Position numbers and translations under genes: made by a program. This document shows, piece by piece, positions 20,701-38,384 of a DNA stretch of 48,844 bases. The notes below the pieces were generated by a model that was not told where the DNA came from, searched no databases, and worked only from the letters and a program-made list of their open reading frames with translations. The DNA is taken from the IMG/VR virus record IMGVR_UViG_3300023180_000095, positions 1-48,844 of that record, one strand, 5' to 3'. The DNA is from a virus. Within the stretch, counting starts at the first letter, position 1, and each line of letters starts with the position of its first letter.

Positions 20701-23700
20701 GGTAACATTTAGTGCTCAGTTAACGTCCGGTACACAAAGATTTGCTAGATATAACGAAGAAAACTTTATTATAACTGTTTTGGATGCCGGAGACTCTACG
20801 GCAGTAAATACAGGAGACATTATTTACATTGATGAACAATATGTTCAGATCAACTCAAACGTCATTACTTCTACAGAAGTAACCTCCGGTTCTTTGGTTA
20901 TCACATTACCAAATAGTTTCTTCCAAGGAGAGGGTCAAGGTGCTCTAGCTGTTTATCCAAAACTTAAACTAACTGCTACGATTGAGATTGATAAGGCAAG
21001 ACCTAGACTAAAGACTGCTATTAGGAATAAGAGACTCTCTGTTGTATCCGGTGGTGATAGAATCATTCCATTTAGAGGAACTGATTACGACGCAGAAACT
21101 ATTGAAGTATTAACATATTCAGATGCCTTTAAGTTAAGATATGTTTATGAAGGTACATCTTCTACTCCCCCAGATGCTGATGCTGACGGAAATCTTGTAA
21201 GTGGAACTGACATTACTTACAAGTATACTTTTGATAGCGGACAGAGAGATACTTTCTACGATGTTTCTAGAATCATTCTCAAACCAGGATTTGATGCTCC
21301 TACTGGTCAGTTATTGATTGCTTTTGATTACTTCGAGCATTCTCTTGGAGATTTCTCTACAGTTGATTCTTATATACACCAAGCAGGTGTAACAGCTTCA
21401 GAAATCCCAACATTTAACTCTTCTGTATATGGAACTGTAAGTCTAAAAGACGTAATCGATTTTAGACCTAAAGTAGATAGCACTTCTATTATTAGCGGTT
21501 TCCAAGATACATCCATCTTAAGTGAGGCATCTGCTCTCTCGTTCACTGGTCCATCGGGTATTCCATCTTTAACACCAGCCACAGATAAAAACCTAGAGTA
21601 TACTTTTACGTTCTCCGAAAGTCAGTATCTAGGAAGAATGGATGGTGTGTTCCTAACAAAACGTGGAGAGATTGTTGTAGAGCAAGGAAACCCTTCATTA
21701 AACCCATCCAAACCAGAAATCATTGATGATTCCATCGCTCTCGCTTACTTAAACATTCCTGCTTTTACAAATAGCACCAAGGATGTAAGGATTATTCCTG
21801 TGGATAACAGACGTTATACCATGAGAGATATTGGCAAGTTAGAGAAGCGTATTGAACGCCTTGAGTTCTACACTACGCTAAGCATTCTTGAGCAACAGGC
21901 ACTAAACATGCAGGTTAAGGATGACTTGGGTATTGATAGGTTCAAGTCTGGATTCTTTGTTGATGCTTTCGAGGCACATTCTGTTGGTAATCTTGGTTCT
22001 ATTGATTACCAATGTGCTATCGATTCACAGCAGTCTGTATTAAGACCTCAAGCAAAAGAAGATAGTTTCTTATTGAAAGAAGTTAATACCAGGAACGATC
22101 AAAGAGTTCTTGCTGGATATGTTAACAACAATGGTGTTATCACCCTGCCCTACACAGAACAGAAACTCTTAGGAAATGACAACGCTACAAACACCGTCAA
22201 CCCCAATCCATTTGTTGTACTTCAGTATGTTGGAGATGCTAACGTTTCACCAACTATCGATCAGTGGTATGATTCTTCTGTAGAACCATTAGTTGTTGAT
22301 ACCAACACAAAGTTAAACTCTATTCTCTTGGCAAAAGATGATTCCAAAGAATCACTTTCTAGTTTGTATGATTCTTTCATTGTTAACTGGGTAGGTACAG
22401 ATAAAACTCTATACAATATTGAGTCTTTATCTGATATCAATACAGATAATATTATCTCCTCTACAACTGCTGCCAGCATTGCTAGTTCTTCTAACGTAAG
22501 TCCACAAAATAATGAGTTGGGCAAAGGAGTTAATAGTAAGATTGTCAATGGAAGATCTGTAGCTACTGGAGTTCAGTTCTTTGCTAGATCTATCCCCATT
22601 AAGTTTACTCTAAACAGACTTAAACCAAATACAAAGATCTACGTTTATCTAGATGATAGAGATGTTGGAAGGTGGGTTTGCCCTGATATCTCTTATACTG
22701 GTATTGCCGGTAACTCTCTATCTACTTTTGGTAACGAATTAGTAACTGATGTCAACGGTAGTTTGAGTGGTATTGTTCTAGTTCCTGCTGGAGCTCCACC
22801 AAGACTAAACACCAGATGGACAGGAGATGTTAATACAGTACAGTATGATCTATCAGCCGAAGAAGTAAGAGTAACAGAAGGATCTAAAACATTCCTCTTC
22901 TCTTCTGGTGTTTCTAATGAATCCAAAGAAAATCTAGACACCTACGCTGAGGTACAGTTCTATGCTTCTGGTGTGATGCCCTCCAATCCACAGAGCATCG
23001 TCTCTACTGGTATTGCTTATTTCAAGGCAAACGAGGGTGTTCAACTTGCTAACAGCAATACAGATCAGGAACTAAAACCAAATCCACTGGCACAAACGTT
23101 CAAGGTAGAAGGATATCCAGGCGGAGTATTTACAACCGGTGTTGATGTCTTCTTCTCCAAGAAGAGTAATGATATTCCTATTAGAGTATATCTAACTAAC
23201 GTAGAGTCTGGAGTTCCAGGAAAGTATATTGTACCAGGAACTCAGATTAGTCTTTCCCCAACTACAAAGTTAAAGGCGTATTTAACAGGAGATACAGATT
23301 CTGTCTCCTTATTTAAAGGAGAGAACATTACCGGAGCATCTTCTGGTGCTGTTGGACCTTTGGTTGATGTCTTAGATAAAAATGGTATCTCTTTAGGTGA
23401 TGAGTTAAGCACTTCTTTCACGATTACCAAAGAACAAACATATACGCTGATTCTCTCTAATCATAATGGAGTTTCCTTTATTCAAGATGAAGATTTAAAT
23501 ATTTCATCTGTAACTCAATATAACTCTACAAACAATAGACTTGCTGTTGTTACTCTTGCTAAAGACTCTGGTAGAGTTGTTGATCTAAAAGTTAAAAGTG
23601 TTGGCGAGAAGTACAATGGCGCTTCGATTACAATCGAGAGTCCACAACTTCCAGGTGGCAGTATTGCTTCTGCTGATATCCAAGTTTCTAATGGTTCTGT

Positions 23701-25840
23701 TTACAACGTTGACCTAGTTCTATCTGGAAAAGGATATACCGAAGCACCTTCTGTGATTATTAAAGGTATTGGAACAGGGGCTACTGGAGCAAATGTTGAG
23801 TCTGTTATCGAAATCGACACGCCTGCCGTACAGATGGGTGTTGCCACAGATTCAGATCTAAGCGAAACCAACTCTGTTACTCCAACTTTATTCAAGTTTA
23901 AGTATCCTGTATATCTCCAAGATAACACAGAATATGCTTTAGCGATTGAAACTGATTCCTTAGAATATGAACTATGGGTATCTAGACTTGGTGAAGATGA
24001 AATCACTACCCAGGCATCGGTAACTACACAACCTTTACTTGGTTCCGTGTATAAGTCACAAAATACTGGTAACTTCACCGAAGATCTGTTTGAAGACATT
24101 AAGTTTACTTTATACAGAGCATCGTTCTTCACAAATGCTACTGGAGAGTTAAGACTCACTAACGAGAACTTAGGATATGAATCACTTAATGTTTCTCCTT
24201 TCGAAACCAGTGCTAAATCTCCTGTCAACTCTACGTCTCCCTTGTTTAAGGGCAACAACTCTATTGTTAAAGTAAATCACAGAGACAATGGATTCGAAGA
24301 TACCGGAAAATCCTACGTATACTTCAAGGAAGTTGAAGATGTAGGTGGAGTTTCGGCGGTTACTCTAAATGGATCACTATTTAAAGTATCTAACAGTGGT
24401 ATTGACTCCTATAACATCACCAGTCCAAGCAGAGCAGGTTCTAGTGTTATTGGAGGTGGATCTAGAGTATTATCAACTTATAATAGAAAGTATGAAAAAC
24501 TATATGCTCAAGTAGCATATCTACAGTTAAATAATACTTCTATTCAGGCAATGGTAAAAACTACCGACATTGTTCCTGTAGATTCCGAGACTACTAACTT
24601 TGTTTCTTATCAAGAAAACGATTTCGAGAAAACTTTCTTAAACGAGCAGCATTACTTTACCAATCAAAAAGTGATTGCTTCTAGAATCAACGAAGTGTTC
24701 AACTCAGTTGATAAATCCCTAGAATATAAGATTAACTTATCCAGCACAAGTGAAACTGTATCTCCAGTTATTGATTTGAACGCTGCTTCTGTCAAAACAG
24801 TCTCTAACAGAGTAGAGAATGCTTCCGGCAGAGAAGCAAGATACGGTAAGAGATATCAAGAACTTCGTTTCTTACCTTCTTATGAAGTTAACTTCCTGGT
24901 TATCGGTGACCCATCTCAGATTACTGTAGGATGTACTGTTACCGGAACTACTTCCGGTGCTATTGGTTCCATCATTGCTTTCGACGGTGTTGCAACAGCA
25001 TCCATTAACGTATCAACTACATCCAACTTTATTGTTGGAGAATCTACTCTTATTGTAGACCCCGTAGGTACTACTATTACATCTGCTACAACTAGCATCA
25101 ATGGCATTTCCGAAGAAACATTCCAGTTCTCGGAAGGTTCTAATGTCGTTGCTTCTTATCCCCTAGAACTAACTACAACATACGATAATACAATCAACGG
25201 TAAGATTGTTGAGTGGGATTCCAAGGATAAAGTTCTAGTCGTAGATACTCCATACGAACCTATCAATGGAGACTATGATTCTGAGATCTCACCAGGGTCT
25301 GCCTATGTAAGATCTGCTGATCCAGTGGAACAACAACCAGATATTTTTAGAGTTGGCGATATTATCAAGTCCGCCGATGATAAGTATCTAAATGTAGGAA
25401 CTATGACTCTTTCTTCCGGTGTTGACTTTGTTTCTGATGTAGAATCCAAAAATAGTTCTTCTGCTGCTAAGTATGTTTCTAAAGAGACATTCATTAATAC
25501 ACCAGGAACATCTATTGATGTTCGTGTTACAGCAACGGTTAAGGATACAGAAAATGTCAAAGTGTTCTATAAGTTTAAGAAAGCTTCTAGTCAAGAAAAC
25601 TTTGATGATATTAACTGGGTGGCATTCAACGTTGATGGAAATCCAGACAACACAGATATTGCTACTTCCGGCAACTCTATCTCTGGAAACTACGAAACAC
25701 AAGCAGAATATCAAGAGTTTAAATATAGTGTAAGTAACTTACCCGAGTTTTCTTCTTACGCTGTTAAGATCGTTATGAAGACAGATGAACCTGCTTTCCC
25801 ACCTAAGATCCAAGATTTAAGAGCAGTAGCTTCTTACTAA
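17765..25840 (+). CDS. DUF4815-type virion structural protein, 2691 aa
   Basis: This is a giant wedge-periphery or fibre-attachment protein. The N-terminus carries the DUF4815 signature: FDDFDADKNFYKVLFRPGY (about 13-31), QSRELTTLQSILQNQIESIG and FKQGQQVVPGEV. Further family-like landmarks are LKDVIDFRPKV (about 1227), YTMRDIGKLEKRIERLEFYT (about 1349), LAQTFKVEGYPGGVF (about 1775) and TLFKFKYPVYLQDNTEYALA (about 2039), the last two resembling a carbohydrate-binding-like beta segment. Two GSGY/GKGY modules lie near 735 and 1945-2010. In cyanophages such proteins are annotated as virion structural and sit between gp8 and gp10-like genes, as here. It could supply the T4 gp9 or gp10 role, but I see no direct similarity. 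The start follows a strong terminator with only a weak AGGA site at an unusual 13-base spacing. Confidence 0.8.
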   Translation: MPQKTNINATPYFDDFDADKNFYKVLFRPGYSIQSRELTTLQSILQNQIESIGRYTFKQGQQVVPGEVGLNTKLDYVKLSSVSEVGVGQPDGTIVYQTYDISLLVGQKLRGITSGVIANVVDTALATTTESDTLFVTYVNSGDDNNETTFRQGETLEVVNGINTPLLVVGIDGSVLPTSITIENPITGDQTVIGSPAMGFASAVEVEEGIYFVNGFFVKNKKQILVIDKYSSKTSAKVGFRIVEEIVTPQQDGSLFDNARGYSNASAPGAHRFKITLNLVEVGYSDKTDNNFVQLLKVNQGVIEKEVEKADYSLLEDTLARRTYDESGDYVVDTFKTEVREYYQQNGNNGIYRLGSSGTVNGLSEVEAESKMILAVGPGKAYVRGYEIVNKATKNVEVDKARDILTKDNVLLKSTGLATYKITNLSGTVPLNTVGGELTSYPDVYLNTVFNDGTVGLNGLEAEGYFKSTVNRRSQPFGLDVGIKTLYLQLTDDVPTLELIPDELWFSKTVSGGVPTTVDKVTVIGKSIVNRNVVNSEATQLFAEVTVLAQKSILDTYLFEYDENGSGRYRYFWTSEATAFTETPWAFVVDYNDTIHPVAGIAKPKNYSLVRRAEGFNEDLDKILSKGRAEDGSRPYNATFNFSYFAPRFFTKLKLETSPTTGFTPGKYVVGRDSKAYGVVESDETRNYSFGKNLFVTTLSGTFRPGETIIDEDGVSLKIAQENTISHFVVNYRGSGYADSGPTRAKLVINGREFDTAVVEAKVEGGGIYAAEIVNNNEIRQQYVSPPVVTVTPDQGGVNNARITAVLNKDTVLTYSNQNIKSFNSVYDSYTFTADIDTTKAEYAESVQVTSFTFSGEKGNKYLVSNGFATDLSQTLKRGDLIQYTDDAGQVIRNVVQSYTDSEGVVKSRILLDYTLGANVTNATVVRVRPVLENATKSSLIFPTGSKQVASLVKDTEDTRFKYYIRKDFVSELAAAGSTVTFSAQLTSGTQRFARYNEENFIITVLDAGDSTAVNTGDIIYIDEQYVQINSNVITSTEVTSGSLVITLPNSFFQGEGQGALAVYPKLKLTATIEIDKARPRLKTAIRNKRLSVVSGGDRIIPFRGTDYDAETIEVLTYSDAFKLRYVYEGTSSTPPDADADGNLVSGTDITYKYTFDSGQRDTFYDVSRIILKPGFDAPTGQLLIAFDYFEHSLGDFSTVDSYIHQAGVTASEIPTFNSSVYGTVSLKDVIDFRPKVDSTSIISGFQDTSILSEASALSFTGPSGIPSLTPATDKNLEYTFTFSESQYLGRMDGVFLTKRGEIVVEQGNPSLNPSKPEIIDDSIALAYLNIPAFTNSTKDVRIIPVDNRRYTMRDIGKLEKRIERLEFYTTLSILEQQALNMQVKDDLGIDRFKSGFFVDAFEAHSVGNLGSIDYQCAIDSQQSVLRPQAKEDSFLLKEVNTRNDQRVLAGYVNNNGVITLPYTEQKLLGNDNATNTVNPNPFVVLQYVGDANVSPTIDQWYDSSVEPLVVDTNTKLNSILLAKDDSKESLSSLYDSFIVNWVGTDKTLYNIESLSDINTDNIISSTTAASIASSSNVSPQNNELGKGVNSKIVNGRSVATGVQFFARSIPIKFTLNRLKPNTKIYVYLDDRDVGRWVCPDISYTGIAGNSLSTFGNELVTDVNGSLSGIVLVPAGAPPRLNTRWTGDVNTVQYDLSAEEVRVTEGSKTFLFSSGVSNESKENLDTYAEVQFYASGVMPSNPQSIVSTGIAYFKANEGVQLANSNTDQELKPNPLAQTFKVEGYPGGVFTTGVDVFFSKKSNDIPIRVYLTNVESGVPGKYIVPGTQISLSPTTKLKAYLTGDTDSVSLFKGENITGASSGAVGPLVDVLDKNGISLGDELSTSFTITKEQTYTLILSNHNGVSFIQDEDLNISSVTQYNSTNNRLAVVTLAKDSGRVVDLKVKSVGEKYNGASITIESPQLPGGSIASADIQVSNGSVYNVDLVLSGKGYTEAPSVIIKGIGTGATGANVESVIEIDTPAVQMGVATDSDLSETNSVTPTLFKFKYPVYLQDNTEYALAIETDSLEYELWVSRLGEDEITTQASVTTQPLLGSVYKSQNTGNFTEDLFEDIKFTLYRASFFTNATGELRLTNENLGYESLNVSPFETSAKSPVNSTSPLFKGNNSIVKVNHRDNGFEDTGKSYVYFKEVEDVGGVSAVTLNGSLFKVSNSGIDSYNITSPSRAGSSVIGGGSRVLSTYNRKYEKLYAQVAYLQLNNTSIQAMVKTTDIVPVDSETTNFVSYQENDFEKTFLNEQHYFTNQKVIASRINEVFNSVDKSLEYKINLSSTSETVSPVIDLNAASVKTVSNRVENASGREARYGKRYQELRFLPSYEVNFLVIGDPSQITVGCTVTGTTSGAIGSIIAFDGVATASINVSTTSNFIVGESTLIVDPVGTTITSATTSINGISEETFQFSEGSNVVASYPLELTTTYDNTINGKIVEWDSKDKVLVVDTPYEPINGDYDSEISPGSAYVRSADPVEQQPDIFRVGDIIKSADDKYLNVGTMTLSSGVDFVSDVESKNSSSAAKYVSKETFINTPGTSIDVRVTATVKDTENVKVFYKFKKASSQENFDDINWVAFNVDGNPDNTDIATSGNSISGNYETQAEYQEFKYSVSNLPEFSSYAVKIVMKTDEPAFPPKIQDLRAVASY

Positions 25841-26042: not shown

Positions 26043-29000
26043 TCGAAAGGAAGTTTTTAGATCAGATACCTTTGAACAACAAAGGGAAAAGATCAATGAA
26101 GTCGCCCAGGATCTGTTCGACATCGCTACAGGTGTAACTCCTATTGATCGATTGCTAATCGATGGGGGATTACAACCAGGAGAGATTATTGATTCGACTG
26201 GCAGTGCCGGAGAAGACGGACAGTTTCTTAAAGTTAATAAAGAAGGAAAACTTCTTTGGAAATCTCTCACTATCGAGAACGTATTGTGGGTGTCGAAAGA
26301 CGGAGACGATGCCAACGACGGTCTAAGTGCTGAGACAGCAAAAGCATCTATCGGGGCTGCTCTTAGAACAGCACAGAGAGGATTCTTTGGTAAGTTATGT
26401 GACGGTGCTAACAATATTCTGTTAAACAGAAAACTTCTCCAGGATGAAGTAGTCGGAGAACTTCTAACCGAGTATAAGGATTATGCCAGAGGCAACAGAT
26501 GGATTGATGCCTACGACACTATCCAGAACAACGTTGATTATATTGCTAACGAAGGATTCGAGAGAGGACTAGCGAGATACCTATTAATCAATCCAGGATT
26601 TACTGTTCCTAACGGAAACCAGGAATGCATCGATGACGTAAAACTATTCATCGATGCTGTTGCTTTCAACATGAAATATGACGGCAACAATAAGGTATAT
26701 GACTATGCTGAAGTATATACCATTTCCGAGTTTGGTGATCTTATTACAGGTGAGAGAGATGCTTCCGCTATTGTATATCAGGAAGTTGCCTATGTAATGA
26801 TGGAGGTAATGAGACAAGATGCTACCGCTGTCATTGAAGGTACTCATGGACTCACTCCAGTATTTGATAGCACTATTGTTCTAGATCCCCTAGCAATCTT
26901 TGATCAGACATCTGCTGAAGCTGCTGATCTCATTAGAAGAAATAAGAACTTTATTGCTGCTGAAGGTTACGACCGAATGATTGCTAACCCAGCATTTGCT
27001 GGATTTGTCGGAACAGGAACACCACAAGATTGTATTGATGACGTACTAGATGTATTAGATGCTATCATCTACAACCTAACATATGGTGGTAACGATAGAG
27101 TATATGACGCCGCTAATGTATATGTAACAGGAACGTTCAATGGCGAAGCAGTTTCTACTCTACTAGATGCTGAAAGAGATGAAGCTGTAAATGTATACGA
27201 GAATGCTAGAGATGTAGCAATCGATGTAATGAGAGGCATCACTGTTACTCCAATTAGCGGAACACAAAATACATTCACTCAGGTTATTGATCCTTATGTA
27301 TTACCCGATCCTGCTAATCCAGACTGTGCTGATCAAGCAACTAAGATTGCTGACTTGACAACAATCATCACCGATGCCATTGGAACAGATTCTGGTGTTG
27401 GTGATCTAACTGGATTTACAAGAACAGAACCCACACCTGCTGTCGATTACGGTGCTGGATGTACTGATGTTGCTTCTGCTATCTGGGCATTAACACTAAT
27501 CTATCTACAAGCAATCGGTAGTGATGCTACTCCCGGCAACTTAGACGGTATTACTAGAACTAGCAACAACAGATTTGTATTTCCTGACTCCCCTGCCGAG
27601 TCTGGTAGATGGAAGGATGCTAGAAACCTAATCTTCTCCAACATGGAAGAGATTCAGGATAGATCTCTTGCCGAGATTGCTCTTGAATATCCTGATTTTA
27701 ACTTCCCCGAAGATGATACAGAAAATAGATTCTCTAGATATAAAGACTCTTATCGTCTCATTCAGCAAAACCGTAGAGAGATTGTAGATAGATCTCTTGC
27801 TGAGATTGCCAATAACTATCCTTTATTCTCTTATCCTGGTGATCCAGTAGAGACAAGACTATCGAGATATAAGGATGCCTATCGTTCTATTCAACAAAAC
27901 AGAACTCTAATCGCTGAGTTATCATATGATGATATGGTCCTTGAAGGTCTTACCCTCCAAGGAACCCCAGAACAATGTAAGCGTGATATCGGATACTTTA
28001 TTGATGCTGTATCCCTAGATTTATTCTTAGGTGGATCTAATACCTATACTAGAAAGTATCTATTAAACTATTACGACGAGACCAATACGTTTATCCTTAA
28101 TGGTTTGGATGGAGAAGAAGCAGCATCTATTGTTGCCTTCACTAATGCCGAGGCAATCATGGGTGCTGTAATCAGCAACCAGTTGAACGTTACTCTCCCT
28201 ACAACTAGAGCGTATCAGTTAGATGATGGAACCAACACTGCAGGTGAAGCATTTGACAGAGGTCTAGTTCTTTACAGAGATTTAACTCAACTTGTAGGTG
28301 CTCCAACCTATGAGTTTGGTAGTGCCAATGATACTGGTAGCAACCAGGCGGCAAACTCCTGTACTGATGTCAAGTCTACCTTAAACGTTCTAGTTACATA
28401 TGTAACTGATGTTCTAAATGCTGAGATTGCTGTGGATAACAGTGGTTTTGCTGTAATCCCCGATGAACTAAACGTACCACAGGGTAGATATCAGGATGCT
28501 TCTAATCTAGTATTTGCTAACAAGAATGAGATTGCTGATAGAGCATTAGCACAGATTGCTATTGATCATCCAGACTTTGTGTTCCCTGGTGATCCTGCCA
28601 GCAATCAAGAGAACTATCGTTATTATGATGGATATCGTTTGATTCAACAGAACAAGAATGATATTGTTGACCAGGCATACGTAGACACTTCCGCTTACAT
28701 CATTGCCAACCCATTATTGTTCCCCAACTTCAATACTGGTGATGTCGTTACTAACCTCGCTGCTGTAGAAGTTAAGTGCCGTAGAGATATCGGATACTTC
28801 ACCGATGCTGTATCTTTAGATGTCTTCACCAGAGGAAACAGATACACCAGAGACTTTACTCTCTTCCATTACGACGAGTTTGGCAATAGACTTCCTCAAC
28901 TAGACGACGAGGAGCATTTAGCATCTATCTATGCTTGGGGTCAAGCAGCTTCTTACATGAAGTTGTCCATTGCTAACCAGTTCCCCATTCAAGATCTCAC

Positions 29001-32000
29001 TGTTGTAGAAGGTCCTGCTGTATTTGGCAGTGGCGAACCAAATGTCCTCAACACAGATGCAACTGCTTGTTCTGATGTACAAACAACAGTTGATAACTTA
29101 ACCACTATTGTTGTTGATGTATTCACCGATGATGACATTGATCTTCTTCCTTATGTCAACAATGGTGACTATAACGCTGGTATGGATAAGTGTAAGCGTG
29201 ACCTAGGATATCTAGTAGATGCTGTTGTAGATGACCTCTACAACGAAGCAAACGTCAAGTCTGTCGCTAACGCTCTAGCATATTTCCCTGGTGGTGTTTA
29301 TAATGACATCGGTGAAGAACTAGAGTCTGTGACTGCTTTCCAGGCTGCCGCCGATGCTATGGAGTTAGCAGTAACAAACAATCTATTCAGACAAGATCTA
29401 ACCATTCTTCCTGATCCTCCTAGCGTAGATCCAAGAGATCCTGCTAACTGTGCTGATGTAAGAGCAACAATCCAAACTTTGGTTGGTATTACTAAAGATG
29501 CTATTGACGCAGAGAGACTTGCTCCAGGAACAGGTTTTGCTACTATTCCTGATGCTGCAGCCGGAGAAGTTGATTATGGTAATCCTGTTTTCTCAGAATC
29601 CAAGTGTGGTAGAGACATTGGATACTTTATTGATGCTATCTCTCTGGATATTTTCCTAGGTGCTGGTAACAAATACACTCGTAAACTTGCTCAGAACTAC
29701 TTTATCTCTACTGATGTACCTATCTATCCAGGTCTTGTAGGGGAAGAGTCTCAGTCCATCACTGCTTTTGAGATGGCAAGAGACATGATGCAGAAGGCGG
29801 TAACTAACCAACTCTACATCAAAGACTTAACCATCTCTGCTGGCGAAGCAGAATATGGAGACGGACTTGGTGATATCCCTGTGCTTGAATCTGGCAATGC
29901 CGCTGCTTGTGTAGACGTTCAGAACTCTATTGCTTCTTTAACTGCTATTGTCACAGGTGTATTAACTGACGGAAATCTAAGAAATCTAGTAGATGAGGTT
30001 GCCTTCAGATTTGATCGTTTTGACGATGCCGCCAATCTAATCGGTATTAATAAGAATGAGATCCTAGATAGATCTCTTGCTCAGATTGCTATTGACTTCC
30101 CCGACTATGCTTTCGCTGGTGATGAGGTAACAAACGACAACAGCAGATTCTTTGATTCGTATCGCTTAATCCAGCAGAACAAGACTGCTATTACCGATGA
30201 CGCTTTTGATGCCGCTGCTGCCAACCCACTCTATGCTACTTTCTTCAGTGCCCTAACACCAACAGAGATTGATAAGTGTAAGAGAGACACTGGATACTTC
30301 ATCGATGCCGTATCTCTAGATGTCTTTACTCAAGGTAACAGATATATTAGATACAACACAGAGTATTACTTTACTGATGGAGTTCTCACTCCTAATGTAT
30401 TCCATCCTTCTGGAAGCACCGTCGAATCTTTATTCGTATTCAGATGTGCTGCTGAGTTAATGAAGGCAGCGATCACTAACCAGGATTCGTTTGACTTCAC
30501 GCCCAACTTATCCAATGGTGCTGTATATGCTACAGCAGATCTAACAGCATACACCAAAGATCTAACTCTTACACCAGATCCAGCAACACAAAGTAATACA
30601 GACGCTAGATCTTGTGCTAATGTCAGAACACTAATCGATAATCTAACTACTATCAAGGTAGATAATATCGAAGCAGGAACTTTAAATCTTCCTTCTCTAG
30701 ATGAAGGTATCTTCCTTGATACAGATTCTGCCTATACTCCCGGTGGTAAGATTTGCCGTAGAGATATTGGTTTCATTGTTGATGCCGTAATGGCAGACCT
30801 TAAGGGAAGAAGCAACACTAATAGTGTTACTGCTGCTAGATCTTACTTAGATGGTGGTGTTTTAATCCCAGTCATTGCTGGAGAAGTTCCTCAGACTGTA
30901 AGTGCTTTTAGCAAAGCAATCCTAGTGATGCAGGATGCCATTCAGAACGTTCTTTATAAGAGAGATCCTAATGTCATTGATGACGGTAATGTTTATCCAA
31001 ACAAATGTATCGATGTTCAGAATGAGATCGCTTCTTTAGTAACCATCGTTACTGATACCCTATCCGCTGGTGATGATAGCATTGTTAATACCCCAGGACT
31101 AGAAACATTTGGTTCTCCTGGTGTAAATGAACTTAAGTGTCGTAGAGATATTGGGTATGTTGTAAGAGCACTCGCTGAAGATCTATATGCCAACAGCAAC
31201 ATTAACATTATTAAGGTTGCTAGAGCATATTTCAATAACGATGGCACTCCCCGTGCCGATGGATTAGTAGGAGAAGAATCCGAATCTATCACCGCTTATA
31301 AAGCTGCTGTTAAGTTCTGTAAGAAGGCACTTACCAACCAACTCTACAATAAGGATCTAGAACTATTCTTCGGTCCAGAAGAGTATGGTTTAAGTTTCCA
31401 ACCAAGAGATTATACTAAGTCTGGATCTGATAAGGTATGTGTTGATGTCCAACTTGCCTTAGACAACCTCATTACTATTCTTGAGAAAGTTGTAACCGAT
31501 GGGACTTTAGCACACTTAGATACCGTCAAGGAAAACTATGGTAGGACTGGATGGAAGAAGACAGAATCTCTCTGCTACCGTGATACTGGATATATTATTG
31601 ATGGAGTTGCAACAGACCTTAAGGTTGGCGGCAACGTTAACACAACTGATATTGCTAACTTCTACTTCGATAACCAGAATCAACAACTCATCTATATTGA
31701 TGGAGAACTAGAGCAGTCTATTCTCTCTTATAGATTTGCCAGAGATCTAATGAAGAAGGCAGCAAATCAATGGTTGATTTCGCCTTCTAATGATCTATAC
31801 GAACCCAAGTATAGTTTAGAACCTCTATACTTCGACAGCAATGTTATTCGTGATTTTGAATATCCATATTGTGTTGATGTTGCTAACTCGATTGATAACT
31901 ATTGGGATATTATCGAGTATATGCTACTAGAGGGTGGTCCAAATACAGACGCTCAAACTTCTGTTCAAGTTCAGTTACCATCCTTCAAGACCACAGTATT

Positions 32001-33561
32001 TGTCAAGTCTGGTGTGTATACAGAGCAGACTCCTATCACTCTACCTCCAAACACAGGTATCTTCGGTGATAACCTCCGTGATGTCAGCATCTATCCAAGC
32101 GATCCTACACAGAATCTAATCTACTGTGAGAACGGTGGATATATCACTAACGTCACATTCTCTGGACACTTATTCCCCTCTTATACTTGCTCCTTCCCCA
32201 AAGTTAAGATTGGCGATAATAACCAAGCATATGTCGCTGAAGGTCAAGGAACGATTACTAAGATTGGATCTGGTGTCAAGGGATCATATCAGATTACTCT
32301 AGATGATACACAAGGTCTCAAGGAGAGAATGTATGTCACGGTTAAGAATCTAGAACCAGGCAAACTTACTGGCGGTGTTGCTACTGCTGCTGTTATCATT
32401 AGCATTCAAGATAAGGTAATCACCGTCTCTACTGCTAATGAGCTTAACTTCACAAACATTGAACTCAACTTCGACTACTATATTGGTACGGCTGGTAACA
32501 TCACCAGATCTCCATATGTACAAAACTGTACTTCACTAACTACTACTGGTAGTGGTTTGATTGTAGACGGTAACCTAGCAACAGGAACTGCCTCGTTCGT
32601 TCTTGACTCCTATACCCAGTATAACCAAGGTGGCGACGGTATTACTATCGTTAACGGTGGATATACTCAGTTGGTGTCTATCTTCGAGATCTGCTGTAAC
32701 CGTGCTGTATATCTAACTGCTGGTTCTACTTGCTCTATCACGAACTCCAACACTGACTTCGGTAACTTCGGACTAGTTGCTGATGGTGTATCGCCACTAC
32801 AATACACAGCACAAGTTGATGGAACTCAATCTCCTGGTTCCGTTTTCAATCTTAAGAATCTACCCAAGAGACCTTACATCGGTCAGGGTATCACGATTGG
32901 TAATAATGGTCAACCTTATTACTTTATTCAAGAGATAAATATTACCAACGGTGGTAGTGGCTATGCCTCTCCTCCATCCGTTGTTATTGATGATCCAACT
33001 GGTCCAAGCGGTATTCCTGCTCAGGCTATTGCTAACTTGACAAATGGTGTTGTAACTTCGATTACAATCGTTTCCTCTGGTTCACAGTTTATTAATCCTC
33101 CAAACATTACATTGGTTGGTGGTTCTCCTACTGTTACAGCAACAGTAGAACCAGAAATGTATCCACAATATTATAGCATTGTTACCTCAACACAACCAGA
33201 TGCTGAAGGTAAAGCAACCATCACTACTGATGAAAATATTGCCTTTGACTTGAATGATGGTGATGAAGTCTACTTCTTCCAGCAGACTAGAATCATCGCC
33301 AACTCTCATTGTATGGAATATGTGGGTGCTGGAACTAAGATTCAAGAAGCCATTCCTGCTAGAGGTGGAGTTCCCATCCAAGCAAATGAAGTTGTTGAAC
33401 TTAATGGTGGTAAGGTTGCTTTCACCAGCACAGACCAACTAGGTAACTTCAGAATCGGTCAAGGTCTACAGATTAACCAGAACACTGGTACATTATCTGG
33501 AGATTCATTCCAAAGATCTCTCTTCGTTACAGTAACCCCCTTCATTCTCGCCCTATCATAA
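26032..33561 (+). CDS. giant repeat protein with beta-helix C-terminal region (gp10-like position), 2509 aa
   Basis: The N-terminus (NRKEVFRSDTFEQQREKINE) resembles the wedge-attachment start of T4-like peripheral baseplate and fibre proteins such as gp10. A GQFLKVNKEGKLLWKSL strand (about 64-80) follows. Residues about 195-1960 are an array of three interleaved repeat types carrying conserved Cys (see the repeat feature). Residues about 1975-2250 look like a pectate-lyase-type right-handed beta-helix (VFVKSGVYTEQTPITLPPNT onward), the fold of many phage tailspikes. A GGSGYASPPSVVIDDPTG module lies near 2300-2376, and the end carries GGKVAFTSTDQLGNFRIG. It overlaps the 66-aa gene by 11 bases. 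The T4 gp10 equivalent is the best positional guess; a tailspike with or without enzymatic activity is the alternative, and no catalytic residues can be assigned. Confidence 0.75.
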   Translation: MAINRKEVFRSDTFEQQREKINEVAQDLFDIATGVTPIDRLLIDGGLQPGEIIDSTGSAGEDGQFLKVNKEGKLLWKSLTIENVLWVSKDGDDANDGLSAETAKASIGAALRTAQRGFFGKLCDGANNILLNRKLLQDEVVGELLTEYKDYARGNRWIDAYDTIQNNVDYIANEGFERGLARYLLINPGFTVPNGNQECIDDVKLFIDAVAFNMKYDGNNKVYDYAEVYTISEFGDLITGERDASAIVYQEVAYVMMEVMRQDATAVIEGTHGLTPVFDSTIVLDPLAIFDQTSAEAADLIRRNKNFIAAEGYDRMIANPAFAGFVGTGTPQDCIDDVLDVLDAIIYNLTYGGNDRVYDAANVYVTGTFNGEAVSTLLDAERDEAVNVYENARDVAIDVMRGITVTPISGTQNTFTQVIDPYVLPDPANPDCADQATKIADLTTIITDAIGTDSGVGDLTGFTRTEPTPAVDYGAGCTDVASAIWALTLIYLQAIGSDATPGNLDGITRTSNNRFVFPDSPAESGRWKDARNLIFSNMEEIQDRSLAEIALEYPDFNFPEDDTENRFSRYKDSYRLIQQNRREIVDRSLAEIANNYPLFSYPGDPVETRLSRYKDAYRSIQQNRTLIAELSYDDMVLEGLTLQGTPEQCKRDIGYFIDAVSLDLFLGGSNTYTRKYLLNYYDETNTFILNGLDGEEAASIVAFTNAEAIMGAVISNQLNVTLPTTRAYQLDDGTNTAGEAFDRGLVLYRDLTQLVGAPTYEFGSANDTGSNQAANSCTDVKSTLNVLVTYVTDVLNAEIAVDNSGFAVIPDELNVPQGRYQDASNLVFANKNEIADRALAQIAIDHPDFVFPGDPASNQENYRYYDGYRLIQQNKNDIVDQAYVDTSAYIIANPLLFPNFNTGDVVTNLAAVEVKCRRDIGYFTDAVSLDVFTRGNRYTRDFTLFHYDEFGNRLPQLDDEEHLASIYAWGQAASYMKLSIANQFPIQDLTVVEGPAVFGSGEPNVLNTDATACSDVQTTVDNLTTIVVDVFTDDDIDLLPYVNNGDYNAGMDKCKRDLGYLVDAVVDDLYNEANVKSVANALAYFPGGVYNDIGEELESVTAFQAAADAMELAVTNNLFRQDLTILPDPPSVDPRDPANCADVRATIQTLVGITKDAIDAERLAPGTGFATIPDAAAGEVDYGNPVFSESKCGRDIGYFIDAISLDIFLGAGNKYTRKLAQNYFISTDVPIYPGLVGEESQSITAFEMARDMMQKAVTNQLYIKDLTISAGEAEYGDGLGDIPVLESGNAAACVDVQNSIASLTAIVTGVLTDGNLRNLVDEVAFRFDRFDDAANLIGINKNEILDRSLAQIAIDFPDYAFAGDEVTNDNSRFFDSYRLIQQNKTAITDDAFDAAAANPLYATFFSALTPTEIDKCKRDTGYFIDAVSLDVFTQGNRYIRYNTEYYFTDGVLTPNVFHPSGSTVESLFVFRCAAELMKAAITNQDSFDFTPNLSNGAVYATADLTAYTKDLTLTPDPATQSNTDARSCANVRTLIDNLTTIKVDNIEAGTLNLPSLDEGIFLDTDSAYTPGGKICRRDIGFIVDAVMADLKGRSNTNSVTAARSYLDGGVLIPVIAGEVPQTVSAFSKAILVMQDAIQNVLYKRDPNVIDDGNVYPNKCIDVQNEIASLVTIVTDTLSAGDDSIVNTPGLETFGSPGVNELKCRRDIGYVVRALAEDLYANSNINIIKVARAYFNNDGTPRADGLVGEESESITAYKAAVKFCKKALTNQLYNKDLELFFGPEEYGLSFQPRDYTKSGSDKVCVDVQLALDNLITILEKVVTDGTLAHLDTVKENYGRTGWKKTESLCYRDTGYIIDGVATDLKVGGNVNTTDIANFYFDNQNQQLIYIDGELEQSILSYRFARDLMKKAANQWLISPSNDLYEPKYSLEPLYFDSNVIRDFEYPYCVDVANSIDNYWDIIEYMLLEGGPNTDAQTSVQVQLPSFKTTVFVKSGVYTEQTPITLPPNTGIFGDNLRDVSIYPSDPTQNLIYCENGGYITNVTFSGHLFPSYTCSFPKVKIGDNNQAYVAEGQGTITKIGSGVKGSYQITLDDTQGLKERMYVTVKNLEPGKLTGGVATAAVIISIQDKVITVSTANELNFTNIELNFDYYIGTAGNITRSPYVQNCTSLTTTGSGLIVDGNLATGTASFVLDSYTQYNQGGDGITIVNGGYTQLVSIFEICCNRAVYLTAGSTCSITNSNTDFGNFGLVADGVSPLQYTAQVDGTQSPGSVFNLKNLPKRPYIGQGITIGNNGQPYYFIQEINITNGGSGYASPPSVVIDDPTGPSGIPAQAIANLTNGVVTSITIVSSGSQFINPPNITLVGGSPTVTATVEPEMYPQYYSIVTSTQPDAEGKATITTDENIAFDLNDGDEVYFFQQTRIIANSHCMEYVGAGTKIQEAIPARGGVPIQANEVVELNGGKVAFTSTDQLGNFRIGQGLQINQNTGTLSGDSFQRSLFVTVTPFILALS
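26600..31830 (+). repeat. composite protein-repeat array with paired Cys motifs
   Basis: Three repeat types alternate in frame. Type A is C-(K/R)RD-(I/T)GY-x-x-DAV followed by about 65 residues; ten copies begin near 26620, 27027, 27975, 28770, 29190, 29605, 30275, 30755, 31135 and 31570, the first two diverged (CIDDV form). Type B is C-x-D-V-x-x-x-(I/L)-x-x-L-x-x-I; about ten copies include CTDVKSTLNVLVTYV, CSDVQTTVDNLTTIV and CVDVQNSIASLTAIV. Type C is a helical unit of the form NKNEI-DR-LAQIAID-P-F plus YRLIQQNK, seen near 27610-27960, 28490-28690 and 30020-30200. Copies have diverged at the DNA level. Confidence 0.88.
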
Positions 33562-33920: not shown

Positions 33921-36900
33921 ATGTCCCAAATCAGCAGACTCCTTAGTAATAGAGTAAAGGTAAAAGGTCCACTAGAAGTTGGTCCTGGTAGATACACCTA
34001 CCTTGCTCTAGAAGAAGCGGAACCTAATCTAGGTGCTCCTCCGGGACCGGCTCCGGTTGGTCAAGTATATGTATTGGCATCTGACGAAACCGGATTTAGA
34101 TTTTGGCAACTTATTGATCCTGCTGGTCAGGGCATTCAGGGCATTCAGGGTATCCAAGGCACTCAGGGTATCCAAGGTATAGGAAACCAAGGTATCCAAG
34201 GTATTCAGGGTATTCAAGGTATAGGAAACCAAGGTATTCAGGGTATTCAAGGTGAACAAGGTATCCAAGGTGTTGATGGTACATCAGTAGAGATTATTGG
34301 ATCGGTTCCTGATGTAAACGTAATTGGTGATCCACAGGCAACATTAAATGGAGCATTCCCATCTGCTGTAGCAGGTAATGGTGTTCTTGATGATGCAACT
34401 GGAGATCTTTGGGTATACGATGGTGCTCTATGGGTCAACGTAGGACCAGTTAGAGGACCACAGGGTACTCAAGGTATTCAAGGAGATTTTGGACCACAGG
34501 GCATCCAGGGTATCCAAGGTGATCAAGGCATTCAAGGTGTTCAGGGTGATCAAGGCATCCAAGGCATCCAAGGTGGTGGTAATCAGGGTATTCAGGGTTT
34601 ACAGGGCGATTTTGGTATTCAGGGTATCCAAGGTGATCTTGGACCACAGGGTACTCAAGGTATCCAAGGCGAACAAGGCGTCCAAGGTACTCAAGGTTTT
34701 GACGGATTCCAAGGAACTCAAGGAACGAGAGGATTCCAAGGTATTCAAGGTATCCAAGGAGACCAGGGTGTACAGGGTGATTTCGGTATTCAAGGTGATC
34801 TTGGACCACAGGGTATCCAGGGTATCCAGGGAGATCAAGGTGTCCAAGGCATCCAAGGTGGTGGCGGTCAGGGTATTCAGGGCATTCAAGGTGATGCTAT
34901 CCAAGGCACTCAGGGTCTCCAAGGAGATCAAGGCACTCAGGGCATCCAAGGAGACCAAGGTATTCAGGGCATCCAAGGTCTAAGTATCCAAGGTGTCCAA
35001 GGTATTCAAGGAGACCAAGGTATTCAGGGTATCCAAGGTACTGGTATTCAGGGTTTACAGGGTATTCAAGGAGATCAAGGCATCCAAGGTACTCAAGGTT
35101 TCCAAGGTGTTCAAGGACAACGTGGATCACAAGGTTTCCAAGGTATTCAAGGTGATCTAGGTATTCAAGGAGAAGTTGGACCTCAAGGTGTTAGAGGATT
35201 TACTGGTCTTCAAGGTAATACAGGTAATACTGGTAACCAAGGTTTCCAGGGTATCCAGGGAGATCAAGGCATCCAAGGTATCCAGGGAGATCAAGGTATC
35301 CAAGGTATTCAAGGTTTCCGTGGTAGAGACTTTATTGTTATCGGTTCTCTTGATGACGTAACTCTAGGTGGAGTTCTAACAGAAGTTAGCGGTGGTAGTG
35401 TTGGTAGTATTGACCAGTTTAGTGTTACTAATAACACTGGTACTACTTCACTTGGTTCTGGGCAGTACACGGTAACTGTACAAGGAGACCTCGGTGGAGC
35501 GGATGCTTTCTTACAGTTCCAAGTAGATGGAGCAGGTAATGTTACCGTAGATTCTTTATATGGAGGAACTGGATTCCAACTTAATGAAGCGGTTACTCTA
35601 AATGATACCGATCTTGGCGGTAGTGGTGCTGGTACTATTTCTCTCATCGTAAGAGCAGATACACTCTGGACCTTTGCTAATATTTCTGCTTACATTAGTT
35701 CTGAGTTTGATGGTAATCCACCCAAGAATAAACTTGCCGGATTCAATGACGGTATTATCGACGAAGCATCTGGTGACATTTATGTTCTGCAATCGGATAA
35801 TGTTACTTGGGTTAACGTAGGTAATCTAAGAGGTATCCAAGGTCTTCAAGGCATCCAAGGTATTCAAGGTATCCAAGGAGACCAGGGAGTACAGGGTATC
35901 CAAGGAGACCAGGGAATACAGGGTATCCAAGGAGACCAGGGTGTACAGGGTATTCAGGGTATTCAAGGAGACCAGGGTATTCAGGGTGTCCAGGGTGGAC
36001 AAGGCGATAAAGCAGGTTTAGTTTTTGAGTTTGATAGTTCTACAGCGACTGGAGATCCTGGCAGCGGTATTATTAGATTTGACGCTTTAACTCCAGCATC
36101 TACCACAATCGTTAGGGTCAATAACCTTACTCTTACAAGCGGAAATATTCGTAGTTATATCCAATCGTGGGTAAACTATGGTTTTGCTGGAAATCTAGGA
36201 ACTCTTCTTCTCGTAGATAATAGCAACGATGATAATGATTTTTCTGCTTTCCAAGTTGAAAGCATCGATGACACCAATGTTGGTTGGTTGGAGCTTGCCG
36301 TTACAAACGGATCCGGTGTTGGTTTTGCTGATGCTGACGTTATTGCCTTACAGTTTATTCCTGCTGGTGCTCAGGGCATTCAAGGTCCACAAGGTTCACA
36401 AGGTTCACAAGGTATCCAAGGAAACCAGGGTATTCAAGGTATCCAAGGAGACCAAGGAGTACAGGGTATTCAAGGTGTCCAGGGTGTCCAGGGTGTCCAG
36501 GGCATTCAAGGTCCACAAGGTTCACAAGGTATCCAAGGAGACCAGGGTATTCAAGGTATCCAAGGAGACCAGGGAGTACAGGGTATTCAAGGTATTCAAG
36601 GTTTATCCATTCAAGGAACTCAAGGAACTCAAGGGTTCCAAGGTGTTCAAGGTAATGAAGGAACATCGCTAGTTATCGTAGGATCTGTCCCTGATGTTTC
36701 GTTAGGCGGAACTCTTACTACCGACACACAGAAGAGTAACTACTTAATCACTCAGTTTGATGGTGATCCCAATCCTCAGATTCAGCAAAACCAAGGCATC
36801 ATTGACGAAGCAACTGGTGACCTTTGGGTGTATGACGGTACTCAATTTACCAATGTAGGTACTATTAAAGGTAACCAAGGCACTCAGGGTACACAGGGTC

Positions 36901-38384
36901 CCCAAGGCGTTCAAGGTTTTACTGGTATTCAGGGACCAGTTGGTAACTTCGGTGGTGCTACTTTCAACTACACATTTAGTAACAGCACTCTTGTACAAGA
37001 TCCTGGCATCAGCAACTTAGCATTAAATAATAGCACCCAATCTAGTGCTAATAGGTTATCAATCGATCAACAGGATGATGATCTAGGTGTTATCGATAAC
37101 TTCTTAGTAAGCATTGATAGTTCTACTTCTACGATTAAGGGTCATTTTAAGATTTCCACCAACGGAGATCCATCCGAATACTTGTTCTTTGCTATCAATG
37201 ATTTAACAAATCAAACCGGATGGTGGGAAATAGATTGTACTTTTGTATCCGGGTCTGGGGTTGTATTCGTTAATAACGACGATGTTCTAATTACATTTGC
37301 CAGAACTGGTGATATTGGTAACCAAGGATCTCAAGGTATCCAAGGCATTCAAGGAGATCAAGGCGTCCAAGGCGAACAAGGTATCCAAGGTCTAAGTAAT
37401 CAAGGTATCCAGGGTATCCAAGGAGATCAAGGTGTCCAGGGTATTCAAGGTGACTTAGGTATTCAAGGACAAGTTGGTGCTGCTCTAAAGATCATCGACA
37501 CTGTTGAAGCTCCAGATTCTCCTATTGATCAAACTAGTCAAGCAACTATCAATGCTGATATCGATAACTGGTTAGAAGTTAACAGACCAGAAGGAGCATA
37601 TAGCACTACTGTAGGACCCTTAAATCAGGGTGATGCTGTTATTGATGATGCTACGGGAGATATTTACATCTATGACGGAGCAGACTGGAGTAACAGCGGA
37701 AACCTTAGAGGACCACAAGGTCCACAAGGCGTTCAAGGCACTCAAGGTATCCAAGGAGATCAAGGCGTTCAAGGTATCCAGGGTTTAAGTAATCAAGGTA
37801 TCCAAGGAGATCAAGGTATCCAGGGTATCCAAGGAGACCAGGGTATTCAGGGTGTTCAGGGAGATCAAGGTATCCAGGGTATCCAAGGAGACCAGGGCGT
37901 ACAAGGTACTCTAGGTAATACTGGACTTACAGGACCACAAGGAACTCAAGGTGTTCAAGGTATTAAAGGAGATCTAGGTGATACTGGTATTCAAGGTACT
38001 ACTGGTCCTACGGCGTCAGTCCCTGATGATATTGAAAATATTACATTAGTGGAAGCATTTGACGGAGTTAGAACTGAGTTTACTGTACAGAAAGGCGGAG
38101 TCACATTAACGAATGATGATGTTCTGGTAGAGGTATCCAGACTGATGATTTCTGTTGGTGGTATTATCCAAGAACCCGATCCATCTGGATTTGGAGCAGG
38201 TGGTACAGTTGGTTTTAGACTAAATACTTCTAATGGAACAGATAATCTGGTGATCCGATTTGCCGAAGCACCAGACAGCACCCAGAGCTTCTTCGGTGTT
38301 GTTTTCCAACAAACCAACAGCCCCACCACCACATACGCTACGAGAGAATACGCTCTCACTAAAGCTATCATATTCGGAGTCTAA
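33921..38384 (+). CDS. collagen-like tail fibre protein, 1487 aa
   Basis: Long Gly-X-Y tracts (GIQ, GDQ, GVQ, GTQ) should form a trimeric collagen-type shaft, with Gln almost fixed at Y. Tracts run near residues 70-119, 177-467, 636-695, 819-913, 980-1008, 1134-1182 and 1264-1364. Between them sit globular inserts of two types. Type 1 (about 120-176, 468-635, 914-983 and 1187-1262) has IGSVPDV...DEATGDLWVYDG...VNVG-RG. Type 2 (about 697-815 and 1009-1131) starts with (F/Y)-(E/T)-F-(D/S)-(S/N) and ends with a DVIALQF- or DVLITFA-type strand. The C-terminus (about 1365-1487) holds a DG-T-F...LMISVGGIIQEPDPSGF...FFGVVF module found elsewhere in the window. It is preceded by a 113-aa gene and followed closely by the next fibre gene. 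A receptor-contacting fibre is the likely role. The shadow frames over the repeats are also open and are not genes. Confidence 0.85.
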   Translation: MSQISRLLSNRVKVKGPLEVGPGRYTYLALEEAEPNLGAPPGPAPVGQVYVLASDETGFRFWQLIDPAGQGIQGIQGIQGTQGIQGIGNQGIQGIQGIQGIGNQGIQGIQGEQGIQGVDGTSVEIIGSVPDVNVIGDPQATLNGAFPSAVAGNGVLDDATGDLWVYDGALWVNVGPVRGPQGTQGIQGDFGPQGIQGIQGDQGIQGVQGDQGIQGIQGGGNQGIQGLQGDFGIQGIQGDLGPQGTQGIQGEQGVQGTQGFDGFQGTQGTRGFQGIQGIQGDQGVQGDFGIQGDLGPQGIQGIQGDQGVQGIQGGGGQGIQGIQGDAIQGTQGLQGDQGTQGIQGDQGIQGIQGLSIQGVQGIQGDQGIQGIQGTGIQGLQGIQGDQGIQGTQGFQGVQGQRGSQGFQGIQGDLGIQGEVGPQGVRGFTGLQGNTGNTGNQGFQGIQGDQGIQGIQGDQGIQGIQGFRGRDFIVIGSLDDVTLGGVLTEVSGGSVGSIDQFSVTNNTGTTSLGSGQYTVTVQGDLGGADAFLQFQVDGAGNVTVDSLYGGTGFQLNEAVTLNDTDLGGSGAGTISLIVRADTLWTFANISAYISSEFDGNPPKNKLAGFNDGIIDEASGDIYVLQSDNVTWVNVGNLRGIQGLQGIQGIQGIQGDQGVQGIQGDQGIQGIQGDQGVQGIQGIQGDQGIQGVQGGQGDKAGLVFEFDSSTATGDPGSGIIRFDALTPASTTIVRVNNLTLTSGNIRSYIQSWVNYGFAGNLGTLLLVDNSNDDNDFSAFQVESIDDTNVGWLELAVTNGSGVGFADADVIALQFIPAGAQGIQGPQGSQGSQGIQGNQGIQGIQGDQGVQGIQGVQGVQGVQGIQGPQGSQGIQGDQGIQGIQGDQGVQGIQGIQGLSIQGTQGTQGFQGVQGNEGTSLVIVGSVPDVSLGGTLTTDTQKSNYLITQFDGDPNPQIQQNQGIIDEATGDLWVYDGTQFTNVGTIKGNQGTQGTQGPQGVQGFTGIQGPVGNFGGATFNYTFSNSTLVQDPGISNLALNNSTQSSANRLSIDQQDDDLGVIDNFLVSIDSSTSTIKGHFKISTNGDPSEYLFFAINDLTNQTGWWEIDCTFVSGSGVVFVNNDDVLITFARTGDIGNQGSQGIQGIQGDQGVQGEQGIQGLSNQGIQGIQGDQGVQGIQGDLGIQGQVGAALKIIDTVEAPDSPIDQTSQATINADIDNWLEVNRPEGAYSTTVGPLNQGDAVIDDATGDIYIYDGADWSNSGNLRGPQGPQGVQGTQGIQGDQGVQGIQGLSNQGIQGDQGIQGIQGDQGIQGVQGDQGIQGIQGDQGVQGTLGNTGLTGPQGTQGVQGIKGDLGDTGIQGTTGPTASVPDDIENITLVEAFDGVRTEFTVQKGGVTLTNDDVLVEVSRLMISVGGIIQEPDPSGFGAGGTVGFRLNTSNGTDNLVIRFAEAPDSTQSFFGVVFQQTNSPTTTYATREYALTKAIIFGV
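34129..38010 (+). repeat. collagen-type Gly-X-Gln coding repeats with recurrent 5-residue interruptions
   Basis: Degenerate 9-base repeats of the form GGT-ATC-CAA with synonymous changes occupy seven tracts. Triplet phase is broken about ten times by five-residue units: GIGNQ (twice), GGGNQ, GGGGQ, GDAIQ, GTGIQ, GLSIQ (twice) and GLSNQ (twice). The repeats make every reading frame open, which explains the long shadow frames here. Confidence 0.9.

Follow-up and report, generated by a model that had tools for sequence, protein, structure and literature searches.

What protein fold, and what arrangement of domains, underlies a long array of cysteine-containing repeats in a viral tail-fibre-like protein? 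The array was encoded in IMG/VR virus record IMGVR_UViG_3300023180_000095, whose whole stretch of 48,844 bases is referred to as the window, within a 2509-residue protein (P0001, 26032..33561, plus strand) that matched the PHROG families 4527 (short tail fiber, E = 0) and 5342 (tail fiber). An original prediction had described three interleaved repeats at 26600..31830, with about ten units of each of two cysteine motifs, one type usually being followed by the other. The C-x-RD-x-G[YF] motif was found at eight sites (residues 649, 916, 1054, 1192, 1416, 1575, 1703, and 1848) and the C-x-[DN]-V motif at nine sites (residues 477, 777, 1013, 1140, 1293, 1528, 1659, 1803, and 1947). These counts were far above those of 1000 shuffled proteins, which gave means of 0.0 and 0.37 and maxima of 0 and 3, respectively. 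Two degenerate units of the first type (CIDDV, residues 199 and 334) were added by a profile, and one further site of the second type (CADQ, residue 432) was recognized, which brought each type to ten. The third repeat, YRLIQQNK/NKNEI, was present in 10 copies from residue 124 to 1371. The array, its alternation, and its unit number were confirmed, and its extent was slightly larger than described, at ~26401..31940. The three regular parts stood as well, but they look like parts of one domain rather than separate repeats.

That domain looks like a phycobiliprotein-type globin, in which YRLIQQNK corresponds to helices A/B, C-x-RD to helix E with the bilin-cysteine motif, and C-x-DV to helix H with the cysteine at the phycocyanin β Cys153 position. 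The array is probably composed of ten such domains, recursively nested in the fibre. The sequence identity, the fold of two neighbouring domains in a predicted structure, the bracket order of the parts, the covariation of their pairing, and the interruption of a beta-helix were computed, and domain identity and bracket order were both well supported.

When the whole protein was scanned against Pfam, one match exceeded the cut-off, to PF00502 (Phycobilisome) at residues 1369–1436, with 36.9 bits against 22.2; a lone frame stretch gave 16.5 bits, below the same cut-off. PF00502 also exceeded the cut-off in four of 12 other phage records. Relatives of the protein were taken from viral contigs, from 11 loci and then from 80, whereas the bracket test used 179 loci and the window protein. 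A 14-unit profile compared with the PDB sequences gave 30 matches at E ≤ 10, namely 27 phycobiliproteins and three entries of a Mediator subunit, with a best E-value of 0.0044. With a 55-row profile of two-domain segments, all 55 PDB matches were phycobiliproteins of the PF00502 family (best E = 4.4e-4), and the letters KCxRDIGY lay in register with the same letters at the Cys84 site of phycocyanin α. PF00502 matched 51 of the 55 two-domain segments at E ≤ 0.1, the best at 3e-9. A sequence search of the PDB with a single unit gave no phycobiliprotein and three weak chance matches. The array had been taken for a repeat not known as a named domain; no name for it or earlier description of it was found in searches of open-licence PubMed Central (PMC) papers, but its domain matched the phycobiliproteins, a profile match to a known family that the original prediction had itself taken as evidence against it.

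An AlphaFold model of residues 1315–1684, calculated without templates, had a predicted local distance difference test score (pLDDT) of 90.9 and a predicted template modelling score (pTM) of 0.90. The structure prediction that had been proposed as a check on the repeats returned a phycobiliprotein-like fold, with a predicted globin-like arrangement of helices A to H. In a Foldseek search with this model, phycobiliproteins occupied ranks 1–9, with probabilities of 0.92–1.00, and 43 of the 50 rows shown. A second structure aligner gave phycobiliproteins in 50 of 50 rows with Z values of 15.2–17.4, for example 1.8 Å over 136 residues; helical models can reach Z values of 13–14 by chance, so these values were above that level, not far above it. 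More telling for the predicted fold is that every row pointed to a single family. The model contained a discontinuous outer domain, D9 (A/B at residue 1328, E at 1575, and H at 1659), placed around a complete inner domain, D10 (A/B at 1371, E at 1415, and H at 1527). Seven of the 50 aligner rows spanned model residues 1–13 to 363–364 with 139–149 aligned residues and corresponded to D9, whereas the remaining rows mostly covered D10. The second cysteine was located just N-terminal to the last helix, as in β-phycocyanin, with 19 residues from Cys214 of the model to the last aligned residue, 233, and 19 residues from Cys153 to residue 172.

In the proposed architecture, each domain would consist of three separate pieces (helices A/B, helices E to G, and helix H), and whole domains would be inserted in the B–E loops of other domains and once in a G–H loop. 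With insertion in the B–E loops, the chain would therefore go out along the A/B parts and return along the E-to-H parts. When the A/B parts (E-value limit 0.05) were written as opening brackets and the E parts as closing ones, the window protein gave the balanced word (()()((()(()))(()))). Its first opening, at residue 124, was recovered by the A/B profile although it was absent from the profile seed. The 10 A/B, 10 E, and 10 H parts were parsed exactly into ten nested domains, one of them in a G–H loop. The same analysis was applied to 63 complete distinct proteins with at least two E parts, and balanced words were obtained for 58 of them, with 19 distinct balanced words. When helix H was included, 54 of the 63 three-part words contained no violation, compared with 0.3 expected from shuffled parts, and 25 of these parses were complete. 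Two relatives, L137 and L114, had a word depth of ten, and one domain in them was split by ~410 extra residues inside helix E to G.

The pairing of separated parts was evaluated independently of a structure model by the covariation of A/B and E columns. The covariation was trained on contiguous domains and scored over all pairings of the separated parts; each word was represented by a single protein, and training pairs that came from that protein or from similar ones were excluded. Out of 15 words, 13 scored highest with the nested pairing among all permutations, against 3.6 by chance and 1–5 in ten trainings with shuffled partners; for the window protein the nested pairing was the best of 120. 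An earlier run on 44 proteins had the same outcome. The covariation may reflect common subfamily membership no less than contacts; in both cases, nested partners belong together. Words differing by one pair were also compared, and among the 60 best comparisons 19 agreed with nesting only, one with first-with-first pairing only, six with both, and 34 with neither. This comparison was dropped as main evidence, since adjacent A/B parts were too similar to locate the gap. For the predicted nesting, there is good support from the structure model at one level and from the grammar and the covariation at deeper levels.

The resulting tree would hold ten domains in five levels, all encoded on the plus strand. 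The A/B and E-to-G parts were located by profile and parse, and the H parts by the parse; the ends of the A/B and H parts are approximate. The outermost domain, D1, consisted of helices A/B at 26401..26505, helix E to G with CYRD at 31570..31782, and helix H with CVDV at 31867..31938, and would enclose D2 and D4. D2 had helices A/B at 26494..26598 and helix E to G with CIDD at 26620..26817, and its helix H, with CTDV, was found at 27460..27531, downstream of D3, which would occupy the G–H loop of D2. The three parts of D3 were at 26920..27024 (A/B), 27025..27237 (E to G, CIDD), and 27322..27393 (H, CADQ). D4, with helices A/B at 27604..27708, helix E to G with CRRD at 31135..31356, and helix H with CVDV at 31438..31509, would hold D5 and D9. 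D5 extended from helices A/B at 27733..27837 to helix E to G with CGRD at 29599..29826 and helix H with CVDV at 29905..29976, and would hold D6 and D7. The parts of D6 were at 27862..27966 (A/B), 27970..28191 (E to G, CKRD), and 28357..28428 (H, CTDV). D7, with helices A/B at 28483..28587, helix E to G with CKRD at 29188..29397, and helix H with CADV at 29446..29517, would hold D8, whose helices A/B at 28615..28719, also seen in a second model (residues 560–1318), were followed by helix E to G with CRRD at 28774..28995 and helix H with CSDV at 29065..29136. In the D9–D10 pair, both sets of helices A/B were supported by the model of residues 1315–1684. D9 comprised helices A/B at 30013..30117, helix E to G with CRRD at 30751..30966, and helix H with CIDV at 31006..31077, and would hold D10, with helices A/B at 30142..30246, helix E to G with CKRD at 30274..30483, within the strongest PF00502 stretch and also identified by Pfam, and helix H with CANV at 30610..30681.

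The tree as a whole would sit near the start of the fibre beta-helix. The first stretch of the interrupted beta-helix (VSKDGDDANDGLSAETAKASIGAAL.., 26278..26376, plus strand) and the remaining beta-helix with the fibre C-terminus (VFVKSGVYTEQTPITLPPNTGIFGDNLRDV.., 31966..33561, plus strand, with an approximate 5′ boundary), recognized from relatives and by PHROG 17885 at residues 2155–2508, flanked the array. Four open reading frames (ORFs) of relatives (L035, L126, L129, and L156) contained an uninterrupted beta-helix start that matched the stretches on both flanks, and the array occurred at the same beta-helix site in 16 ORFs. Because the beta-helix is uninterrupted in some relatives and carries the array at the same site in others, the whole tree can be regarded as an insertion of ~1,860 residues. 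The tree may have grown as one domain after another was inserted into a loop of an existing one; such insertion would keep the ends of a domain together and would therefore leave the beta-helix and the other domains undisturbed.

An array-specific query matched 183 of 50,697 phage records, named as Synechococcus (128), Cyanophage (50), Prochlorococcus (4), and Marine (1). A query with the whole protein matched 354 phage records, one of them a Pelagibacter phage, and a genome scan matched 3 contigs in two marine metagenome-assembled genomes. The cpeT gene was frequently found in array carriers. A tblastn search with the CpeT of Syn1 matched 66 records, and among the best 60 of 67 strong array carriers, 54 were among the 60 listed cpeT records; the listed carriers outside them were B23, DSL-LC03, S-SZBM1 (two records), and S-WAM1 (two records). 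In Syn1, S-RSM4, S-CAM1, S-RIM32, and ACG-2014j, cpeT and the fibre gene shared a strand, with cpeT lying upstream. In each of S-PM2 and S-WAM2, a giant ORF had a PF00502 match that was preceded by a CpeT match at a distance of 2 to 5 kb, and no CpeT was found in the other fibre regions of these two phages that were opened; in syn9, S-RIM2, P-TIM40, and S-SCSM2R, CpeT was distant from the fibre region opened. The presence of cpeT was considered as an explanation of the difference between CxRD and CxDD phages and was rejected, as PF06206 (CpeT) found divergent copies in three of four phages that were negative by tblastn.

In five cyanophage loci, a gene labelled as a CpeT-like antenna protein was found a short way upstream of the nested fibre gene, at 6486-7025 in L177, 3790-4314 in L179, 5857-6393 in L184, 5277-5810 in L185, and 5625-6149 in L186. 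In three of the five, a gene for a 2OG-Fe(II) oxygenase lay between the two.

Several results weigh against ten nested phycobiliprotein-type domains, in part as to their identity and in part as to their nesting. When the ten segments were scanned singly, PF00502 matched four, the best with 20.8 bits and none above the cut-off; the Foldseek E-values were weak, the best being 0.19 and none ≤ 0.001; and a profile–profile alignment by hhalign with four near-identical phycocyanin β chains gave a weak E-value of 0.026. These low single-unit scores and E-values above 0.1 would be expected if a helical stalk repeat resembled phycobiliproteins by chance. Such convergence is nevertheless most improbable, since three methods (Pfam, the 55-row profile, and the structure aligner) chose phycobiliproteins almost alone, the cysteine motif was in register with phycocyanin α, and the array carriers were cyanobacterial phages by name in 182 of the 183 records, the other being named only 'Marine'. 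As for the nesting, the second model, of residues 560–1318, had a pTM of 0.55, all its 50 matches fell on one domain, and nesting beyond one level was not seen in it. Five of the 63 words were unbalanced, each by one bracket at the end; in two of these proteins an A/B part narrowly missed the limit with E = 0.078, in two others an E part was recovered as two partial matches ~400 residues apart, and the fifth may have an incomplete start. Among the parses without violation, the helix H of one domain was missing in 28 and those of two domains in one. The proteins of the word test were related and not independent, and balanced words could partly arise from gain or loss of whole A/B-to-H blocks. 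Tail fibres are usually trimers, which would permit domain swapping, and the parts might then be paired in sequence order or between chains instead of being nested. This is very unlikely, as first-with-first pairing never scored above nested pairing in any of the 15 words, and the nested pair of D9 was formed in a model of a single chain; nested partners could still be swapped between chains. The role of the nested tree as a branched arm that would lengthen and spread the fibre toward the cyanobacterial host is one that we infer, and this also counts on the negative side.

The function of the cysteines allows further alternatives. Among 261 distinct domains of the parses, the first cysteine was found in 253; Asp followed at +3 in every one of these and Arg at +2 in 228, so that CxRD was found in 228 of the 261 domains; in the window protein, eight domains had CxRD and two had CxDD. 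The second cysteine was present in 258 of the 261. In the original prediction, these cysteines were thought to form disulphides after lysis or to bind metal and thereby lock the fibre, and one nearly invariant cysteine of each type per domain would suit that role. The first cysteine alone was missing in eight domains, the second alone in three, and both in none; because the two are not lost together, a disulphide within one domain is unsupported. An early count, in which the first cysteine was often kept where the second was missing, was rejected, as many of its cases were domains with a G–H-loop insert and a helix H further on; the figures given here were recounted per parsed domain. The two cysteines fall at the bilin-attachment positions of β-phycocyanin, which hold separate bilins and are presumably far apart in that fold, and no further pattern of metal ligands was seen. 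Locking of the fibre by disulphides or metal is accordingly highly improbable. The domains might instead be working biliproteins, with bilin attached by the phage CpeT or by host lyases at C-x-RD (Cys84 type), C-x-DV (Cys153 type), or both, in a fibre that would be pigmented or stabilized by bilin. This is unlikely, although the near invariance of both cysteines and of the Asp agrees with it. CxRD is described as a bilin-binding motif whose Arg and Asp touch the chromophore (part of PMC10151467), and CpeT as a T-type lyase, the type that serves Cys153 (part of PMC10452541). Of 12 fibre-bearing phage records, 11 had a PF06206 match, and of eight annotated regions whose records had a full-length CpeT match, five carried a CpeT-labelled gene 0.3–1.8 kb upstream of the fibre gene. 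Against bilin attachment, no CpeT was found in the window or in seven of nine related contigs, all of which are or may be fragments; a bilin reductase was present in only one of the 12 phage records; and S-ShM2 retained the cysteines with no CpeT match by PF06206 or tblastn. The cpeT–fibre neighbourhood is a lead, and a variable cargo region shared by CpeT and the short tail fibre would look alike. It is distinctly unlikely that cyanophages took a host light-harvesting bilin protein, multiplied it recursively as a branched fibre, and still load it with bilins through their own CpeT.

When the nested array was compared with known systems, phycobiliproteins (the α and β chains of phycocyanin and phycoerythrin, PF00502) shared the order of helices A/B, E, F, G, and H, the CxRD cysteine at the Cys84 position, and a second cysteine at the beginning of helix H, comparable to β Cys153, whereas the window protein would carry ten copies in one chain, cut, nested, and with longer loops. 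The bilin biosynthesis-associated globins (BBAGs) are likewise related to phycobiliproteins and carry CxRD outside the phycobilisome, but in the portion of their description available (PMC10151467) they are single soluble globins beside bilin reductase genes rather than virion parts, and are set apart on that description. Branched insertion of domains in domains over several levels is shared with rpoC2 SI3 of the cyanobacterial RNA polymerase, whose six levels are highlighted in a 2026 survey of domain insertion (PMC13114784, in part). According to the same portion of that survey, the SI3 domains are of SBHM/HABAS type and lie in a polymerase, whereas those of the window protein are helical, lie in a virus fibre, and have an apparent depth of 5 (up to 10 in L137 and L114). 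The window protein is itself one of the Kyanoviridae short tail fiber and tail fibre proteins (PHROG 4527 and 5342), and no phycobiliprotein fold or nesting was mentioned in the fibre annotation of the Kyanoviridae records opened.

The fibre gene was surrounded by baseplate wedge and tail genes. The next large gene (33921..38384) encoded a 1487-residue protein composed mostly of collagen-like repeats of the GIQGIQGDQ type and belonging to PHROG collagen-like/tail fibre families. A 2691-residue protein at 17765..25840 matched DUF4815 (PF16075) and PHROG 358, to which no function is assigned in PHROG, and the largest ORF of the window (3942 residues) was located at 3755..15583. No tRNA was found in the window.

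If the ten domains are nested as proposed, a virus fibre would be built in a new way, by a context-free rule that places whole domains inside their own copies, five levels deep in the window protein and up to ten levels deep in relatives. A relative of the phycobiliproteins would then serve as a virion part, and the nested fibre would be a candidate acceptor for the product of the bilin lyase gene cpeT. In the part of an earlier study available (PMC2984593), the benefit of phage bilin genes was called unclear for Prochlorococcus phages. If the fibre is loaded with bilin by CpeT, the bilin genes of cyanophages would have a role in the virion in addition to that in photosynthesis.

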